Positions 3,054-8,881 of a stretch of DNA of 8,895 bases are shown in pieces. The stretch covers positions 1-8,895 of the forward strand of contig JAIRLG010000072.1 of the NCBI GenBank assembly GCA_031259625.1. Reading direction: 5' to 3'. The number at the start of each line of letters is the position of its first letter. Position 1 is the first letter of the stretch. Origin of the DNA: Puniceicoccales bacterium. Its GTDB lineage: Bacteria; Verrucomicrobiota; Verrucomicrobiae; Opitutales; LL51. Below the pieces are notes generated by a model that worked only from the letters and a program-made list of their open reading frames with translations, did no database searches and was not told the DNA's origin. A program made the translations under genes and the position numbers.

Positions 3054-3168
3054 GGGCGATGGCCCCCTGGCGGAGCCAGGGGGCTGTTTCCCTGAAATGG
3101 AGATTCATTTCAGGGAAACAGCCGGGTCGGAGAACGGCCGGAGGCCGTTCTCCGACGGGCCATCGCCC
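3054..3168. repeat. Cloverleaf (four-way junction) palindromic element 1
   Basis: GGGCGATGGCCC (3054-3065) pairs perfectly with 3157-3168, closing three hairpins: CCTGGC/GCCAGG (3066-3080, loop GGA; extendable to 9 bp if the outer stem yields), an 18-bp stem at 3082-3099/3106-3123 with a 6-base loop, and a 14-bp stem at 3126-3139/3143-3156 with loop GGA. Almost every base is paired, and GC runs at the junction would let the branch point migrate. It lies between the candidate effector gene and folP, both minus strand. It could act as RNA (transcript end, stabiliser) or as extruded DNA. It shares architecture but not sequence with the other three elements in this window. Confidence 0.85.
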
Positions 3169-3207
3169 CAAAAACCCCAAACGAAGCTCCCCCAAACAAT
3201 TTCCCCA

Positions 3208-3297
3208 ATCTTCAGCGCAGAATTCATCCTCCGCACAAAAATAATTCTCAGTGCGAAGTTAATCTTCAGGGCAAAAGTAATCCTCAGCGCGGCTTCG
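3208..3297. repeat. 18-bp tandem array, five degenerate copies
   Basis: Units start at 3208, 3226, 3244, 3262 and 3280, all exactly 18 bp: for example ATCTTCAGCGCAGAATTC, ATCTTCAGGGCAAAAGTA, ATCCTCAGCGCGGCTTCG. The consensus is about ATCCTCAGCGCAAAAGTA. The last copy overlaps the final codons of the candidate effector gene (stop at 3284), so the array may have grown from that gene's 3' end. One reading frame on the minus strand is an open hexapeptide repeat (ALKINF-like), but it has no start signal and is not called a gene. One unit closely resembles a unit of the array near 8825. Confidence 0.8.
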
Positions 3298-3958
3298 ACA
3301 CATCATCGCCGATCCGGGAGCGATTCGCCACTTTAGGCATACTCTTATAAAAACCTTCCACATGGCCGAGGCCCCGGAGCTCCCTCGTCCGGCGGAAAAA
3401 CTCCCTCCGCTTCTGGGCCGTCTGGTGCCGGGGCGAGACCCCGACATCGAAGTCCGTCGTGACGCGATTTTTATGGGTGGCCGCCAGGGTCGTCTGCAAG
3501 GCTCCTCCCTGGGCCTTCGAAATTTCACTCACGCCCTCCTCCGATTTCAGGGCATCGGTCCGGAAGCCAAATCCGAGGACCCCTCCCATCATCGTCCTCA
3601 GCATCTCCATCGCAGCGGCCGTCCTCTTATCCGCCTCCTGCTCGAAGCGCGACTCACTGCCGCTCACATCGCGGTAGTCCGGAATCCCATCGCCGTCGGT
3701 GTCCAGAAAAACCCCCTCCCGCTCCATCTGGCCGACGCTGCGGGTCGACTCCTCCTCATGCTTCTCGACGACGCTCAAATCCATCCTCGCCTCCACCACC
3801 TCCGCCAGCGGAGAGCCCGGCAGATCGCCATGGGACTGCAGCAGCTCCGCCAGGGAGCTGATCGGATTCTCCAGCTCCCTCGGCCCACCGGAGAGGCCGA
3901 CCGTCTCTTGCACCGATCCCGTCGAGGCTGAGCCCAAGGCATAGGGGAAGTCCGACAT
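3284..3958 (-). CDS. Candidate type III secretion substrate with DTDGDG motif (unrecognised family)
   Basis: A 224-residue protein that I do not recognise as a named family. Seen directly: no signal peptide; a Ser/Gly-rich, acidic N-terminal half; FLDTDGDGIPDYRD at 84-97, which fits the DxDxDG calcium loop of thrombospondin type 3 and similar repeats, present once; a Met/Gly-rich amphipathic stretch at 114-132 (MEMLRTMMGGVLGFGF); and a basic C-terminal part from about 160, including KRREFFRRTRELRG. The ATG at 3958 is 6 nt after the chaperone stop (TGA-AAAAAG-ATG), so the two are almost certainly co-translated. In type III systems a CesT-class chaperone is often encoded directly before its cargo, and an unstructured Ser-rich N-terminus suits a secreted protein. 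That role is inference; a structural or regulatory secretion component is an alternative. Confidence 0.75.
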   Translation of the reverse strand: MSDFPYALGSASTGSVQETVGLSGGPRELENPISSLAELLQSHGDLPGSPLAEVVEARMDLSVVEKHEEESTRSVGQMEREGVFLDTDGDGIPDYRDVSGSESRFEQEADKRTAAAMEMLRTMMGGVLGFGFRTDALKSEEGVSEISKAQGGALQTTLAATHKNRVTTDFDVGVSPRHQTAQKRREFFRRTRELRGLGHVEGFYKSMPKVANRSRIGDDVSKPR

Positions 3959-3964
3959 CTTTTT

Positions 3965-4456
3965 TCAAATCCGAACCCGAAGCCGGCTCGCCTTGGCCAG
4001 GTCATTGCGGCGGCTCGCCCCGATGCCCTTGGCGAAGGAGTTCGACTTGAGGAAATTGTCCAGCATCCGGTAGACTTTTTCGGCCGAGGCGGTGAAGTGG
4101 ACGATCAGGTTGAAGAGCAGCGATTCGTCCAGGAGCTCGACGGGGAAGGAGTAGGACATGACGATGAGATTTTTCACCTCGTCGAGGCCGACGAAGGCGT
4201 GCTGCGTCAGGAGCCCGTGTAGGTTGAGGCTCAGGAGGAACTGGAAAAAGGTCTCGCGCCCCTCGCAGGGCAGTTCCATCAGCGGGCAGTAGATGTAGAG
4301 CATGTCGTGATTCTCCAGCACCTCTAAAATGTAGTGCCGCTGCGAGCCGTTGTCCCGAAACCGACAAGTGGTGCCCTCGCCGTCGAATTTCAGCCCAATC
4401 CCCAGGCGCTTCGAAACCCCCTCCAGCAGTAAATTCACCCGTTCCCTACGATCCAT
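3965..4456 (-). CDS. CesT/Tir-like type III secretion chaperone
   Basis: A 163-residue small protein with the layout of class I secretion chaperones: an N-terminal helix (RERVNLLLEGVSKRLG), a short beta region (LKFDGEGTTCRF; HYILEVLENHDMLYIYCPL), then the helical part FFQFLLSLNLHGLLTQHAFVGLDEVKNL and FPVELLDESLLFNLIVHFTASAEKVYRML. Such chaperones dimerise in the cytosol, bind the N-terminal region of an effector and deliver it to the secretion ATPase. Length matches the family (about 130-170). I choose ATG 4456; the frame also opens at a TTG at 4468 that lies in repeat sequence. The usual chaperones are acidic, but this one has a basic C-terminal tail (152-163), which is somewhat unusual. A YbjN-like fold is the main alternative. 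The next gene, 6 nt downstream, is the likely cargo. Confidence 0.75.
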   Translation of the reverse strand: MDRRERVNLLLEGVSKRLGIGLKFDGEGTTCRFRDNGSQRHYILEVLENHDMLYIYCPLMELPCEGRETFFQFLLSLNLHGLLTQHAFVGLDEVKNLIVMSYSFPVELLDESLLFNLIVHFTASAEKVYRMLDNFLKSNSFAKGIGASRRNDLAKASRLRVRI

Positions 4457-4486
4457 AAACCCAATCAACCCTTTCCAGCAGTAAGT

Positions 4487-4561
4487 TCACCTGTTCCCTA
4501 ACGATCCACAAACCCAGCCAGCCTTCTCCAGCAACCAATTCACCCGTTCCCTACGATCCAT
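4487..4561 (-). CDS. Possible upstream ORF 2 (24 residues) in the chaperone leader
   Basis: ATG 4561 reads MDRRERVN, identical to the first eight residues of the chaperone, then continues WLLEKAGWVCGS and stops at TGA 4487. It is in the chaperone frame, 105 nt upstream, with 30 nt between its stop and the chaperone ATG. It may be a dead duplicate or a short leader peptide. No strong ribosome site precedes it. Confidence 0.3.
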   Translation of the reverse strand: MDRRERVNWLLEKAGWVCGSLGNR

Positions 4562-4591
4562 AAGCCTAGCCAACCTTTTCCAGCAGTAAAT

Positions 4592-4660
4592 TCACCTGTT
4601 CCCTAACGATCCACGAATCCAGCCAGCCTTCTCCAACAGTAAATTCACCCTGTTTCCCAT
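4592..4660 (-). CDS. Possible upstream ORF 1 (22 residues) in the chaperone leader
   Basis: ATG 4660 begins MGNRVNLLLEKAGW and ends at TGA 4592, 30 nt before upstream ORF 2. GGAG lies 6 nt before the ATG, a better ribosome site than that of the chaperone itself, and it is the first ATG of the predicted transcript. It may be the original start region left behind by the duplications, or a translated leader that controls the chaperone. Confidence 0.35.
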   Translation of the reverse strand: MGNRVNLLLEKAGWIRGSLGNR

Positions 4661-4678
4661 AATAAGCTCCGTCGGTCT

Positions 4679-4706
4679 TTTATAGAAATTTCATCCGGAT
4701 TGCCAA
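4679..4706 (-). promoter_or_regulatory. Sigma70-type promoter of the chaperone-substrate operon
   Basis: On the minus strand TTGGCA (4701-4706) and TATAAA (4679-4684) are 16 bases apart; each matches five of six consensus positions. Transcription would start near 4672, giving a leader of about 215 nt that contains the whole repeat array. The site lies in the gap shared with the divergent mutY gene, for which no comparable promoter was found. Confidence 0.6.
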
Positions 4707-4735
4707 ACCTAAAGTTTTTCGCGCCATGAAGTCCC

Positions 4736-5851
4736 ATGCCGTCCCCCCATCTGTCCCCAAAGGCGATCCTCTTTCTCCGGCGGGCGGTGATCGATTTCTA
4801 CGTCCACCGGGCCCGTCCCCTGCCCTGGCGCCAGGAGCGCTCCGTCTACCACACCCTCGTCTCGGAGATGATGCTCCAGCAGACCCAGGTCAAAACGGTC
4901 GTGCCCTATTTCCAGCGATGGATCCGGCGCTTTCCGGACCTGGAAAGCCTGGCCCGGGCCGAGGAGGCGGAGGTTCTGGGCCTGTGGGAGGGACTGGGCT
5001 ACTACCGGCGGGCCTCGGCGCTCCGCGAAATCGCCCGGATCATTCGACGGCAAGGGCAGGTGCCTCAAACGGTCGACGACTGGGGAAAACTTCCCGGCAT
5101 CGGCCGCTACACGGCGGCGGCCATCGCCAGCTTTGCCCAAAATGTACCGGTGGCCGTCATGGATGGAAATATTCTCCGCGTACTGCTGCGCTTTGGCGAT
5201 GTCCGGCGTCCCTTCGACGGCCGGGCCCAGGCCCTGAGTTATCTCCGCCCCCTGGCCGAGCGCTGCCTCGATCCCCAACGGCATGCCCTCTACAACGAAG
5301 GACTCATGGAGCTCGGCGCATTGGTCTGTCTGCCCCAGCATCCGCAGTGCCCGCTCTGCCCCCTACGTCCCCACTGTCGGGCCCATCGCCACGCGACAGC
5401 CGAGCACATCCCGCGGTTCAAAGTCTCCAGCTCCAGAAAAGCCCTTAGGGCCCGCGGACTCTTTTTCCGGCACGGCCGGCTCCTCCTCTCGCCCATGGGC
5501 CCGTCGACCAAGCCCACGGCCCTCATCTGGGAATTTCCGGAAATCCCAAACCCACTTTCCCCAAATCTCCCCCCGCCCATCTTTACGGGCCGGCGAAGCA
5601 TCGGCCTTACCCGGTTCACGGAAAACTTCTATATTCTGGAAGCCGACGAAAAAATCTCCTCCGGCGGTCGCTGGTTCTCGGCGGCGGAACTGGAGTGCAT
5701 CCCCCTCTCGGGCCCCCACCGCCGCTGGCTGCCCAGGCTCTGGGAAATCGTGCAGAAGGAAAGGGTTTTGTCGGAAAGGGCCTCGTCGGCCCCGGCGTCA
5801 AAGGAAAGGGTTTCACCGGCCCCGGCGCTGTCTTTGCAGAACGGCCCATGA
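4736..5851 (+). CDS. mutY: A/G-specific adenine DNA glycosylase
   Basis: A 371-residue base-excision repair enzyme that removes adenine opposite 8-oxoguanine. Seen: RPLPWRQ near 27-33, SEMMLQQTQV with catalytic E44, the helix-hairpin-helix LPGIGRYTA (119-127), VMDGN with D143, and the iron-sulfur ligands C198, C205, C208 and C214 (C-x6-C-x2-C-x5-C). A C-terminal NUDIX-like domain (about 235-340) is present. In it, RFTEN (293-297) stands where the family usually has an F-S/T-H loop that reads 8-oxoguanine, so the histidine appears replaced by glutamate. The last 30 residues (KERVLSERASSAPAS...) are low complexity and come from a 15-bp tandem repeat and cloverleaf element 2, which supplies residues 364-371 and the stop. 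Start 4736 fits the family; ATG 4726 is in another frame. There is no clear ribosome site. Confidence 0.94.
   Translation: MPSPHLSPKAILFLRRAVIDFYVHRARPLPWRQERSVYHTLVSEMMLQQTQVKTVVPYFQRWIRRFPDLESLARAEEAEVLGLWEGLGYYRRASALREIARIIRRQGQVPQTVDDWGKLPGIGRYTAAAIASFAQNVPVAVMDGNILRVLLRFGDVRRPFDGRAQALSYLRPLAERCLDPQRHALYNEGLMELGALVCLPQHPQCPLCPLRPHCRAHRHATAEHIPRFKVSSSRKALRARGLFFRHGRLLLSPMGPSTKPTALIWEFPEIPNPLSPNLPPPIFTGRRSIGLTRFTENFYILEADEKISSGGRWFSAAELECIPLSGPHRRWLPRLWEIVQKERVLSERASSAPASKERVSPAPALSLQNGP
5758..5832 (+). repeat. 15-bp tandem array at the 3' end of mutY
   Basis: Five units of exactly 15 bp: GGAAAGGGTTTTGTC, GGAAAGGGCCTCGTC, GGCCCCGGCGTCAAA, GGAAAGGGTTTCACC, GGCCCCGGCGCTGTC. Two subtypes (GGAAAGGG and GGCCCCGGCG) alternate irregularly. 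The unit is five codons, so it lengthens MutY in frame. The last unit is also the left arm of the outer stem of cloverleaf element 2. Confidence 0.75.
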
Positions 5852-5923
5852 AAAGGGCCTTTTCATGGGCCGCTCTGATGCCCGCTCCGCGGGCCGATTC
5901 CTCCGGAATCCAAAGACAGCGCC
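5824..5923. repeat. Cloverleaf palindromic element 2 (overlaps mutY stop)
   Basis: GGCGCTGTCTTTG (5824-5836) pairs over 13 bp with 5911-5923. Inside are three hairpins laid end to end: A at 5837-5877, a 19-bp stem with one A-C mismatch and loop GGC; B at 5880-5894, GCCCGC/GCGGGC with loop TCC; C at 5896-5910, GATTCC/GGAATC with loop TCC. Only three bases of the junction are unpaired. It belongs to the same sequence family as the element at 8392-8488. It contains the mutY stop codon and would form a strong structure at the end of that mRNA; lacking a T-run directly after it, it is not a classic terminator. Confidence 0.9.
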
Positions 5924-6088
5924 TAACCCCGCCCACCCACCCCAAAATTTCTCAACTCGGCCCTTACGGCATAGAACTTAGTCTTTTGCAAGACTCACTC
6001 TTTTTCCGGTGCCATTTTGGAGTTTCCCCTAAAATCCTTTACGCCGTAAGACTTGCGCTTTTCCCCGCTTTTCCTCTTGGGATTTTCC
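5924..6088. other. Convergent intergenic region between mutY and lpxB
   Basis: No gene is seen. Read on the minus strand the stretch looks like a decayed array with a period of about 18-20 bases (TTTTAGGGAAAATCCC, ATTTTAGGGGAAACTCC, AGTCTTACGGCGTAAAG), resembling the array near 8800. CTTACGGC (5963-5970) and GCCGTAAG (6043-6050) form an 8-bp inverted repeat. The array reading is tentative. Confidence 0.4.
5980..6005 (+). terminator. Weak candidate intrinsic terminator after mutY
   Basis: AGTCTT and AAGACT form a 6-bp stem with a 4-base loop, followed after five bases by TTTTT. The stem is AT-rich and the T-run is displaced, so the call is weak; the cloverleaf just upstream may do the work instead. 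Confidence 0.25.
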
Positions 6089-7267
6089 CTAAAACTTCTC
6101 CTCCAGTGAAGTGAGGAGCCACTCCGTCACCGTCAGGTCCGGCTGCACGCCGAGGAGGGCCTTCAGGGCCTCGGCATCCCGCTGCGCCCGTTCGATTCTC
6201 TGGGGATCCCGCAGGCATTGCGCAAGCTCCTCACCCAGGACGGAGGGCTTGGCCTCGCCCTGGATGTACTCCGGCACCGCTTTTCGCCCCAGCAGAATAT
6301 TGGCCATGCCGATGTGGGGGATCTTGACCCAGTGCCGGGCCAGGAAGTAGCTCAGGGGATGGAGCCTGTGGGTGATGACCCCCGGGATACCGGCCAGGGC
6401 ACACCGGAGGGACAGGGTGCCGGAGACCATCAGGCCGGCCGCGCAGGGAAGATTTTGGTCCGAGACGGGAACGAATCGCAGGGATGGCTGCAGGTCTTCG
6501 TATTTCGAAAACATTTCCTGTAATTCCCTAAACACCCCCTCGTCGGCATACGGCACCGCCGCCGAGAGTTGGGGGAATTGGGGACGCAGGCGCCGGAAGG
6601 TTTCCAGCATCAGCGGGAAGAGCCGGAGGACGGTGGCCACACGGCTGCCGGGCAGCAGGAGCAGCGCCCCCCGGGGATCGTACGACAGGGCCGGAGAGGT
6701 TCCGGCGCCCAACAGAGGATGGCCGACGAAGGAGACCCGCAGCGGGGTGTCGGCGAAAAAATCCTTCTCAAAGGGAAAGATAACCGCCAGATGGTCGAGC
6801 CAGCGGGCCATCCCCAGGCGGCGCTTCGCCTTCCAGGCCCAGATCTGCGGGCTGATGTAGTAGTAGAGCGCCACCTCGCCGCCGCCCTTCCGGCTTAAAC
6901 CCCTTTGGAAAAGCCCCTGGGCCAATCGCAGGTTGAAGCCCGGGTAATCCACCAAACAGACCGTACGCGGCCTGTAAGTGGCCACCCAGTCGATGACCGC
7001 CGCGAGCAATCGCCGGAACAGGCGGAGATTCCTCAAAACCTCGCACAGGCCCACGACGGCGTGCTGGGTCAGGTCATAGAGCAGATGCGCCCCGGCCGCC
7101 CGGAGATTTTTCCCGCCGAAGGCGTAGACCGACACCCGGGGATTTTCCCGGAATAAACCCTCCACCATACGGGCCGCATGCTCATCCCCCGAGGCCTCTC
7201 CGGCGACGATCAGGAAATCGGGCCGGGGCCCCGCCGGGGCCAGAGGGGCCTCCTGAAGCCCCTTCAT
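6089..7267 (-). CDS. lpxB: Lipid-A-disaccharide synthase
   Basis: A 392-residue GT-B glycosyltransferase (family GT19), a peripheral inner-membrane enzyme that joins UDP-2,3-diacylglucosamine and lipid X into the lipid A disaccharide. Seen: IVAGEASGDEHAARM (20-34), LVDYPGFNLRLA (105-116), YYISPQIWAWKAKRR (136-150), IFPFEKDF (163-170), FVGHPLL (180-186), LLLLPGSR (202-209), SGTLSLR (282-288), and MANILLGRKAVPEYIQ (321-336). Length is normal. Two positions in the UDP-binding half differ from the usual pattern: LPGSRxxE reads LPGSRVAT, and SGTxxLE reads SGTLSLR with arginine for glutamate. The ATG overlaps the ychF stop as ATGA, so the two are translationally coupled. Identity is secure; whether activity is normal is less certain. 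Confidence 0.93.
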   Translation of the reverse strand: MKGLQEAPLAPAGPRPDFLIVAGEASGDEHAARMVEGLFRENPRVSVYAFGGKNLRAAGAHLLYDLTQHAVVGLCEVLRNLRLFRRLLAAVIDWVATYRPRTVCLVDYPGFNLRLAQGLFQRGLSRKGGGEVALYYYISPQIWAWKAKRRLGMARWLDHLAVIFPFEKDFFADTPLRVSFVGHPLLGAGTSPALSYDPRGALLLLPGSRVATVLRLFPLMLETFRRLRPQFPQLSAAVPYADEGVFRELQEMFSKYEDLQPSLRFVPVSDQNLPCAAGLMVSGTLSLRCALAGIPGVITHRLHPLSYFLARHWVKIPHIGMANILLGRKAVPEYIQGEAKPSVLGEELAQCLRDPQRIERAQRDAEALKALLGVQPDLTVTEWLLTSLEEKF

Positions 7268-8367
7268 ACGTTGAAGCGGAAGACCAGGACATCGCCGTCC
7301 TGCACCTCGTAATCCCTGCCCTCCAGGCGGTAGGTGCCCTGCTCCCGGGCCCGGGCCACCGAGCCGGCCCTCCTCAAATCCTCGTAGCCGATCACCTCGG
7401 CCCGGATAAATCCCCGCTCGAAATCGCCGTGGATGAGGCCGGCGCAGGCCGGCGCCTTCATCCCCCGCCTAAAGGTCCAGGCATGTACCTCCTTCTCGCC
7501 AGCCGTGAAGTAGGAGGCCAGGCCCAGCAGGGCATAGCTCTTCTGGATCAACTGGGCCACGCCGCTGTCCCGCACCCCGATTTCCTCCAGATAGGCCCGG
7601 GCATCCTCCGGGGACAGGGCGATGAGCTCCTGCTCGATGCGGGCGCTCACGACACAGATCTCCCCCTCGGCCTGCTCCCGAAGATGCTGCTCCACCCGGG
7701 CCACATGGGGATTGGCCGAGGGATTTTTTAAATCCCCTTCGGCCACGTTGCAGGCGAAGAGCATCGGCTTCGAGCTCAGGAGGTGGAAATCTTCTGCCCG
7801 GGCCCGCTCCTCGGCGGACAGCGCTGAGGCCCCGATGGGCTTCCCCCGATCCAGCTGGGCACAGATTTTTTCCAGCAATCCCACCTGCTCCAGCGCCCCC
7901 TTCTCGCCGCTGCGGGCCCTCTTGCGCCCCCTCTCCAGCTGACCCTCCACCGATTGCAGGTCCGCCAGCAGCAGCTCCGTCCGGATGATCTCGATGTCCC
8001 GCAGCGGATCCACCGCCCCCATCGTGTGGACGATGTCCTCATCCTCGAAGCAGCGGACGACCTGCAGGATGGCATCCATCTCGCGGATGTGGGCCAGGAA
8101 TTGGTTGCCGAGTCCCTCGCCCCGGGAGGCCCCGGCCACCAGACCGGCGATGTCGACGAACTCGATGACGGCCGGCACCACCTTGTCCGTCTTGACCATT
8201 TCCCTGAGGGGCTCCAGACGCCCGTCCGGCACCGCCACCCTACCCACGTTCGGCTCAATGGTGCAGAAGGGATAATTTTCCGCCGCGGCTTTGTGCGTCC
8301 GCGTCAGGGCATTGAAGAGCGTGCTCTTCCCCACATTGGGCAATCCGACAATCCCCACTCGCAGCAT
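7264..8367 (-). CDS. ychF: Ribosome-binding ATPase YchF (Obg-family)
   Basis: A 367-residue P-loop protein of the Obg family that prefers ATP over GTP and associates with ribosomes; roles in stress responses and translation are reported for homologues. Seen: P-loop GLPNVGKST (8-16), [17 protein letters not shown] (72-88) for switch II, a coiled-coil region around 130-200 ([21 protein letters not shown]), CNVAE (206-210) in the base-recognition position, and a C-terminal TGS domain from about 283 ([17 protein letters not shown] to the end). Length fits the family (about 363). ATG 8367 is chosen because [16 protein letters not shown] begins exactly where homologues begin; the frame stays open upstream to 8496, but that stretch is cloverleaf element 3. 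The ribosome site is weak. The first gene of a ychF-lpxB pair. Confidence 0.96.
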
Positions 8368-8391
8368 AATTCGACCGTTTTCAGGCATCCG

Positions 8392-8488
8392 CCGCTGTCT
8401 TTGCAGGGGCCCAAGAAAGGCGGCCGCCTTCCTTGGGCCCCTGGGGCCCGCTGCGCGGGCCGATTCCTCCGGAATCCAAAGACAGCGG
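8392..8488. repeat. Cloverleaf palindromic element 3 (same family as element 2)
   Basis: CCGCTGTCTTTG (8392-8403) pairs over 12 bp with 8477-8488. Hairpins: A at 8404-8443 (CAGGGGCCCAAG/CTTGGGCCCCTG, then an A-C mismatch and a GC-rich tip); B at 8445-8461 (GGCCCGC/GCGGGCC, loop TGC); C at 8462-8476, identical to hairpin C of element 2. A single base, 8444, is unpaired at the junction. Versus element 2, hairpin A has a different sequence but keeps the CAG/CTG base and an internal A-C mismatch, and the outermost pair changes from G-C to C-G. It lies 25 bases before the ychF start, so it would be in or just upstream of the leader. Confidence 0.9.
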
Positions 8489-8571
8489 AAAACCAAACGC
8501 CTGAATCCCCCGAAGGCTAAGAAAGCGACCCTGGGGTCAAGGGCGAAAGGGAAGCGCCTCCACCCGGTGTT
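8489..8571. other. Spacer between cloverleaf elements 3 and 4
   Basis: No gene is seen. GACCCTGGGGTC near 8527-8538 can form a 5-bp hairpin. Nothing else is supportable. Confidence 0.4.
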
Positions 8572-8681
8572 TGGGGCCGCCTTTGGGCCCTACGGGCCCT
8601 GGCGCCCGCGCCTGCGGCGCGGGCGCCGCGTGAGGGGAAGGGTAAGGAACTTTCCCTTCCCCTCACGCAAAGGCGGCCCCA
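8572..8681. repeat. Cloverleaf palindromic element 4
   Basis: TGGGGCCGCCTTTG (8572-8585) pairs over 14 bp with 8668-8681. It encloses GGCCC/GGGCC (8586-8598, loop TAC), a 12-bp stem at 8601-8612/8616-8627 (GGCGCCCGCGCC, loop TGC), and a 15-bp stem at 8628-8642/8654-8668 (GCGTGAGGGGAAGGG) whose 11-base loop can itself pair AAG/CTT around GAA. Architecture equals that of the other elements, while the sequence is distinct except for the CTTTG/CAAAG inner end of the outer stem, shared with elements 2 and 3. Confidence 0.87.
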
Positions 8682-8696
8682 CTAGGCGACAAACCC

Positions 8697-8881
8697 ACTC
8701 GGGCCAAAACAACGCATTAGGGCCAAAAGACCCTTTTGGCGCAAACCCTCAGAGACCTCTCCTAGAGACCAAAAGTCCCCTCAAGAACCCAAAGTCCCCT
8801 TAGGGGCAAAAAATCCCCTTCAGGGCCAAAAGCACCGTTAGGGACAACCCTTCAGGAACCAAAGCTTCCCCAAGGACAAAA
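8697..8881. repeat. Degenerate 18-20 bp tandem array to the right edge
   Basis: A core close to GGGCCAAAA recurs at 8701, 8720, 8738 (GGCGCAAA), 8766 (GAGACCAAAA), 8785, 8803, 8823, 8841, 8855 and 8874, mostly 18-20 bases apart. The consensus is about TTAGGGCCAAAAGTCCCC. No open frame spans it with a start signal. The unit CTTCAGGGCCAAAAGCA near 8819-8835 differs only slightly from CTTCAGGGCAAAAGTA in the array at 3208-3297. The array may continue beyond the window. Confidence 0.7.

Follow-up and report, generated by a model that had tools for sequence, protein, structure and literature searches.

What are the four cloverleaf-like structures that lie along a short Puniceicoccales contig, and how did they come to be there? 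The window considered here is the whole 8,895-nucleotide stretch of contig JAIRLG010000072.1 (assembly GCA_031259625.1), for which an initial annotation, made from the letters alone, had described four intergenic stretches, each with an outer stem enclosing exactly three hairpins, few or no unpaired junction bases and mostly 3-base loops. These stretches are members of a genuine family of four-way DNA hairpin elements, dispersed in the genome and specific to one lineage. At 3054-3168 (E1), 5824-5923 (E2), 8392-8488 (E3) and 8572-8681 (E4), the minimum-energy fold consists of an outer stem of 12-13 bp around three hairpins, and the four-armed fold is obtained for both strands and with DNA and RNA parameters alike. 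The z-scores range from -7.2 to -12.6 against 200 dinucleotide shuffles, none of which was as stable in any of the 16 folds. With 3, 3, 1 and 1 unpaired junction bases in E1 to E4 and triloops on the short hairpins, the described geometry was reproduced.

Folds of this kind proved not to be common by chance. We used a scanner of DNA folds that accepts an outer stem of at least 8 bp, branches that are each a simple hairpin of at least 5 bp and at most 6 unpaired junction bases; since it needs good stems, it is biased toward intact copies. Contigs C1-C40 of the related metagenome-assembled genome (MAG) G001 (322,746 bp), taken together with the window, contained 99 three-hairpin junctions (95 and 4, respectively), 34 two-hairpin junctions and none with more branches, versus 1 three-hairpin, 27 two-hairpin and 1 five-hairpin junction in a dinucleotide shuffle of the same 0.33 Mb. 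The other G001 contigs examined (446,011 bp, scanned without a shuffle) yielded 124 three-hairpin and 45 two-hairpin junctions and again none with more, which brings the three-hairpin total of G001 to 219. In the parts examined of three further MAGs, the three- and two-hairpin counts were 48 and 16 (G004), 11 and 9 (G002) and 11 and 11 (G003), and a shuffle of these loci (492,227 bp) gave 0 three-hairpin junctions against the 70 real ones, with 32 two-hairpin and 1 four-hairpin junction; every shuffle control was a single replicate. No three-hairpin junction was detected in 100 kb of E. coli K-12 or in three outgroup regions (43 kb), where two-hairpin junctions numbered 12 and 3. The real and shuffled counts thus place two-hairpin junctions at chance level and three-hairpin junctions above it; branch numbers other than three are at chance level throughout, and the only two-hairpin junction among 115 that resembles the family is an arm-loss derivative. 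Further copies therefore exist in number: 289 elements in 1.25 Mb examined from the four MAGs, which belong to one taxonomic family and measure 0.8-0.9 Mb each.

The range of the elements is narrow. In a collection that represents 84,980 species by one genome each, a 23-mer from elements of the E2/E3 type occurred only in the MAG JAITKE01 (Puniceicoccales Pcl387_bin38), which is G001, with six exact matches at five loci; G001 to G004 are all four genomes of its family in that collection. The covariance-model search of related genomes proposed in the initial annotation was run with a model of E2/E3-type elements (R1). It matched exactly these four among 103 genomes of the order, with at least 39 matches each, and G001 alone among 387 genomes sampled from the phylum; per genome, no more than 39 candidates (order) or 10 (phylum) were scored, under strict filters that weak distant relatives could escape. 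R1 is blind to E1, and the range therefore speaks for the main type only. E2 had no match in viral contigs (searched with an exact 19-mer) or in plasmids and phages, and four-arm elements in Puniceicoccales or other bacteria were undescribed in the titles and abstract openings searched, most subscription journals being outside that scope.

Across the set of 293 elements (219 from G001, 48 from G004, 11 each from G002 and G003, and the 4 of the window), size is about 75-125 bp, the hairpins usually measure 6-7, 6-8 and 13-20 bp, and the outer stem is most often 12-14 bp (G001). With elements turned so that the longest hairpin is not first where possible, this hairpin is the last of the three in 258 elements, the middle one in 34 and the first in 1; 263 of the 293 begin with a hairpin of 6-7 bp, and at most 3 junction bases are unpaired in 270. 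Among 668 triloops, 504 were GNA or TNC, 81 were AAA or TTT and 83 were other sequences, with C-G closure in 613 of the 665 tallied, that is, mostly C(GNA)G or the complement. GNA loops are described as forming extraordinarily stable DNA minihairpins (PMC4686876). By their outer stems the elements fall into subfamilies: TGTCTTTG (61), CGCCTTT (45), TGGCTTT (38), CCCGGGA (24), TGCCTTT and CGGCTTT (23 each), GATGGCC (22) and others (57). The annotation had stated that sequence differs between the elements while shape seems to be kept. The second part is supported by the same architecture in the further copies from four MAGs; the first holds for E1, a separate subtype, and not for E2, E3 and E4, which form one sequence family in which E2 and E3 share most of their sequence. 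Accordingly, R1 finds E4 and not E1 at E <= 10, with scores of 95.8 bits for E2 and 89.9 bits for E3 (both among the source sequences of the model) and 63.8 bits for E4, which is outside it.

Two variants of this anatomy were observed. Members of a subfamily of 77 bp, which has three short arms, are found within a called gene at corresponding positions of G001 (L083:2097-2173) and G004 (L151:6481-6557); Rickettsia palindromic elements also sit in genes. G-rich loops such as GGGAGGGTGGGTGGA, candidate G-quadruplexes, cap some of the arms, at L039:10228, L039:12872, L037:3138, L088:2349 and L094:2571.

Is it the DNA or a transcript that folds? An alignment of 45 elements (non-random: 36 of the 39 chosen for regular arm lengths and 9 added by hand from G002 and G003) showed changes on both sides at 26 of 34 pairs, with 96.7% of cells pairing versus 77.4% after shuffling, and a covariation score of 0.541 versus 0.170 after shuffling and no more than 0.176 when the structure was slid. 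G.T pairs accounted for 134 of 12,677 pairs (1.1%; 167 of 12,588, or 1.3%, under RNA parameters), ten times rarer than the 152 of 1,349 (11.3%) in the predicted folds of 56 tRNAs from the same loci. Because a wobble pair corresponds to a C.A mismatch in the complementary strand, this scarcity suggests that both strands are kept, as expected of DNA. Matching gaps of two genomes hold 36 element pairs, 22 of which align well (identity >0.6, coverage >0.8). In the stem cells of these 22 pairs, 759 were unchanged Watson-Crick pairs and 59 had changed on both sides to another Watson-Crick pair; single changes led to a mismatch in 45, to G.T in 28 and to a Watson-Crick pair in 9, double changes to a mismatch in 9 and to G.T in 3, and the remainder were 2 unchanged G.T pairs and 55 gapped cells. 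These comparisons show that pairing has been preserved with the signature of DNA, not RNA.

The same evidence disfavours the structured-RNA role that had been among the candidates, and we regard structured RNAs or transcription terminators (3' end structures or bidirectional terminators) as very unlikely. The folds are very stable as RNA also and mostly intergenic, and divergent gaps hold only 21 elements in 36.5 kb versus 142 in 118 kb of other gaps (gaps of at least 80 bp; of all 219 G001 elements, 106 are in tandem gaps, 36 in convergent ones and 21 in divergent ones, while 11 fall for the most part within called genes and 45 at contig edges). This half density, however, fits promoter avoidance better than termination. 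Moreover, no T-run follows the elements on either strand (T makes up 7-12% of positions 1-5 of the 3' flank and A 5-10% in the 5' flank), and loop polarity is mixed, as detailed below. ARAGORN identified no tRNA in the window, and the three weak Rfam matches there all fell far below the gathering score, so that no family reaches it.

The orthologous pairs bear on two other readings. That the family is an assembly or binning artefact of metagenomic data is hardly credible: although the genomes are MAGs, and G001 contigs are short and in some cases end inside elements, the same architecture recurs in the window and in four genomes, where it occupies orthologous positions with diverged sequence, and compensated stem changes are hard to obtain from misassembly. 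The second reading takes the elements for host-functional DNA structures selected in place, with roles in chromosome organisation, recombination or supercoiling relief. It gains from the 22 clearly alike pairs with their paired changes, and from nearly all of the 300 G001 matches of R1 listed being full length. We nevertheless consider it improbable, as presence and absence vary among relatives and density spans a three-fold range within the family (0.29 elements per kb of non-N sequence in G001, 0.18 in G004, 0.10 in G002 and 0.09 in G003, the G004 figure being based on 48 elements in 262,418 non-N bases; across the genomes, 7 loci consist entirely of N). In addition, elements are inserted within other elements and some called genes, and the 99 other genomes of the order drawn had no match of the main type.

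Have the elements moved, as one of the candidate roles in the initial annotation implied? Copies with mostly unrelated flanks, empty sites and nested insertions support this. E4-related copies (11 in G001, one severed by a contig end, and 2 in G004) have the element in common and differ in their flanks. Among 260 pairs of closely similar G001 copies (stem identity of at least 93%; such close pairs, here and in the loop comparisons below, share ancestry and are not independent events), the flanks had fewer than 6 net matches in 228 on the left and 215 on the right, versus 334 and 337 of 339 random pairs; 25 of the 260 shared at least 14 net flank matches on a side, often on one side only. The G001 copy of E2 at L080:2935 brought about 55 bp of mutY-lpxB flank to a locus that carries no element in G004. 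The comparison of empty and filled sites, also proposed at the outset, identified L058:3509 vs L150:3434 as the clearest case; most others are untidy, and some sites are filled in both genomes. No target duplication was found: for 281 elements, matches between the flanks (2-9 bases, three offsets) lay within the range of 200 re-pairings (highest cells: k=4 at offset 2, 4 vs 1.1; k=6 at offset 1, 1 vs 0.0). No conserved tag accompanies these 281 elements either, with no flank position above 0.26 bits and only G/T-rich left and A/C-rich right flanks. The copies thus show that elements have reached new sites, mostly copied from outer-stem end to outer-stem end and without target duplication.

Nested copies indicate one kind of site. 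Orphan outer-stem end pairs, with no detected element between them (n = 32; 31 at 76-203 bp and one 1152 bp apart), revealed five elements that host another element, and in 5 of 5 a host hairpin carries the guest at its tip, this hairpin being arm C in L058, L094 and L103, arm B in L132 and arm A in L138, the L094 guest being recognised from its fold and absent from the detection list. These five cases show that hairpin tips of existing elements serve as insertion sites. Four further nested candidates (L110, L055, L089 and L044) come from a listing biased toward tips. At L132:9589-9813, host arm B appears to be duplicated around the guest in the form of a perfect inverted copy, which would fit a tip that was opened and then copied.

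We also considered insertion into pre-existing hairpins in general, for which flank complementarity gives a weak signal at most. Over all genomes, nested cases included, the z-score was -3.6 for 25-base and -1.7 for 40-base flanks, and perfect flank stems of at least 7 bp occurred in 12 of 281 elements versus 5.0 expected; G004 alone gave +2.0 and +0.4. Arm C as a guide to other sites was likewise examined: k-mers were shared in excess, but undetected elements had been left unmasked, which makes the excess uninterpretable.

How, then, are the arms kept perfect while sequence turns over? The loops offer a clue. L042:374 and L039:6234 have identical stems, yet the loop of the long arm reads GAA in the first and TTC in the second, and that of the second arm TTC and TCC, respectively. 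Among 45 pairs that do not overlap and whose stems are at least 95% identical, polarity was opposite in 17 of 79 comparable triloops, and 10 of these 17 flips were exact reverse complements versus 4.8 expected on redrawing from the opposite pool; when all 263 pairs of this identity are counted, 71 of 484 were flipped, 28 of them exactly versus 19.9 expected. Orthologous elements flip as well (TGC vs GCA in L036:5214 / L150:6986), and exact flips occur in arms of 6-8 bp too. These comparisons show that loops change polarity while the stems stay unchanged, and they favour inversion of the loop over its redrawing as the likely route. Template switching at short inverted repeats in yeast is described as homogenising arms and inverting spacers, including ttc to gaa (PMC8604942). 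One template-switch process would explain the near-perfect arms, the few intermediates and the loop flips together.

An earlier idea, that GNA loops always lie on one strand, arose from the window, where 8 of 8 C-G-closed GNA loops fall on one strand per element (E1 +, E2 -, E3 -, E4 -). It failed on the large set, in which the loops of arms A and B combined as 71 RR, 56 YY, 46 RY and 24 YR, with the remainder unclassed.

Does an enzyme of their own move the elements? The guess of a RAYT-like or other HUH transposase was not borne out. Y1_Tnp (PF01797; RAYT/IS200) had no match in G001, G002 and G004, and all 7 matches in G003 contain stop codons, as decayed IS200-type genes. RVT_1 (reverse transcriptase) and Transposase_20 (IS110) were found in 0 of the 4 family genomes, and DDE_Tnp_1 gave 1, 9 and 3 matches in G001, G002 and G003 and none in G004, with its 48 elements; none of the transposase families searched was found intact in all four. 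Nor did the 32 orphan end pairs of these incomplete genomes reveal a longer, gene-carrying version of the element; the pair 1152 bp apart is the only one of gene size. It is nevertheless conceivable, if rather doubtful, that the elements are non-autonomous transposons on whose four-way fold a dedicated, unrecognised transposase (HUH-like, junction-resolving or other) acts, requiring all four arms. Single-strand transposition of the IS200/IS605 type proceeds without target duplication, which matches the flanks described above, and the retention of three arms, the sharp outer-stem ends of most close copies and a loop chemistry suited to stable folded DNA all point the same way. Besides the searches, loop polarity argues against such an enzyme, as it does not mark one strand.

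Small repeats of bacteria include miniature inverted-repeat transposable elements (MITEs) and the like, such as Correia/NEMIS, ERIC and RPE (PMC2229807, PMC10969869). The present elements resemble MITEs in their length of about 100 bp, terminal inverted repeats (here the outer stem), intergenic position, high copy number, stable fold and lack of a gene of their own. They differ in having three hairpins within the terminal stem instead of one long stem-loop, and in that sequence has turned over while shape is kept; because there is no target duplication and no parent insertion sequence was found in the incomplete genomes, they are not classical MITEs. Repetitive extragenic palindromes (REPs) and BIMEs, which go with RAYT transposases and have been listed in the PVC superphylum too (Opitutus terrae; PMC3733652), share with them short GC-rich hairpins in many intergenic copies. 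The family here has neither a conserved tetranucleotide tag nor, in the four genomes searched, an intact RAYT and is for that reason not a REP family; it is also a four-way composite, not a single hairpin, and G.T pairs, often observed in REPs according to PMC3733652, are rare.

Our preferred reading, which we consider probable, is that these are non-autonomous dispersed DNA elements of about 100 bases whose unit is the folded four-way junction, kept up by strand switching and spread by repair-type copying, with no transposase of the tested families. Strand-switching DNA synthesis between hairpin arms would keep the arms perfect and invert the loops, and arm sequences would consequently drift as pairs. 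Since none of the tested transposase families was found intact in all four genomes and no longer version with the same ends was seen, the mechanism of spread is one that we infer: new copies may arise when DNA is copied at forks that have stalled or broken, or at hairpin tips that have been opened, by template switch or break repair, with a diverged or unrecognised structure-specific enzyme as an alternative to host copying. Loss of the hairpin nuclease SbcCD might speculatively allow the elements to be tolerated. SbcD was found in 0 of the 4 family genomes by a search that matched 13 of 14 control genomes (above the cut-off in 8), and RuvC in all 4; in E. coli, SbcCD breaks a palindrome, to judge by the title of a reference in PMC7999016. 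A bolder version, in which the fold alone is a self-spreading DNA shape, dispersed by host replication and repair at stalled forks and opened tips with no dedicated enzyme, its sequence drifting in pairs, its architecture of exactly three arms of set sizes being inherited, and its presence tolerated through SbcCD loss, is put forward only tentatively.

Several observations weigh against the preferred reading. Exactly three arms are kept, only 1 of 115 two-arm junctions being an arm-loss derivative and four or more arms being absent from the real DNA examined; passive template switching leaves this retention unexplained, and the retention hints that the shape is recognised as a whole. In most close copies the ends fall sharply at the outer stem, as they would with a transposase, and the transposase search covered four transposase-type families, in MAGs. 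The exact flips are only about twice the redraw expectation, and exchange between copies could contribute to them. Because the scanner favours well-paired copies, fewer G.T pairs are counted, and the tRNA values used for comparison come from predicted folds. Empty sites could reflect gain or loss, and insertion sites outside the nested cases show little hairpin character.

The family may work like mitochondrial palindromes of unsettled mechanism and template-switch inverted repeats. GC clusters, double-hairpin elements and repetitive hairpin elements of mitochondria (PMC4478555, PMC2800124) are likewise dispersed palindromes whose means of spread is unsettled, and they also show merging and a putative co-conversion of flanks; they differ in coming from organelles, in contrast to the bacterial records and fixed four-way architecture here, and yeast GC clusters have AG or ACT flanking repeats where this family has none. 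The inverted repeats of PMC8604942 share arm homogenisation and loop inversion, such as ttc to gaa between perfect arms, but represent a mutation process at unrelated sites, with inversions only for arms >9 bp, and not a whole repeat family. The family offers a natural example of DNA whose secondary structure, to a greater extent than its sequence, appears to be what is conserved and what spreads, in hundreds of copies with clean comparative marks (few wobble pairs, loop flips and tip-nested insertions). The four genomes form a series from organisms for which the SbcD search did not find the main hairpin nuclease of bacteria, and they make the long-standing question of how palindromic repeats spread without a known enzyme directly testable.

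Within the window, the elements lie among folK-folA, folB, folP, two unknown open reading frames, mutY, lpxB and ychF, and its LpxB is 86% and 82% identical to proteins from 'Puniceicoccales bacterium' MAGs. E1 (+ strand, GATGGCC subfamily) is located between folP and the following gene, with an outer stem at 3054-3065/3157-3168 and hairpins at 3066-3080 (6 bp, loop GGA), 3082-3123 (19 bp) and 3126-3156 (14 bp, loop GGA); counterparts occupy the same place in G001 (L122:4398-4552, a BLAST match that includes flank) and G004 (L140:5198-5319). E2 (- strand, CTGTCTTTG type; outer stem 5824-5836/5911-5923) has a long hairpin at 5837-5877 and two of 6 bp each at 5880-5894 and 5896-5910, with loops GGA on the - strand. 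The mutY frame ends inside it, with the final codons and stop at 5824-5851, so that the element forms the gene end; its orthologue is G004 L140:2781-2883. E3 (- strand, CTGTCTTTG type; outer stem 8392-8403/8477-8488) has hairpins at 8404-8443 (long), 8445-8461 (7 bp) and 8462-8476 (6 bp, loop GGA on the - strand), precedes the ychF start codon by 24 bases and corresponds, with compensated changes, to G004 L140:308-406. E4 (+ strand, GCCGCCTTTG type; outer stem 8572-8584/8669-8681) has hairpins at 8585-8599 (6 bp), 8601-8627 (12 bp) and 8628-8668 (long).

The two unknown open reading frames, 3284-3958 and 3965-4468, had no NCBIfam match, and both are conserved in G004. A tandem repeat at 4421-4650, with a spacing of 52-53 bases and five copies of its first 20 bases, overlies and extends upstream of the start of the second. 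At 8701-8879, a loose array of GGGCCAAAA-like repeats adjoins E4.

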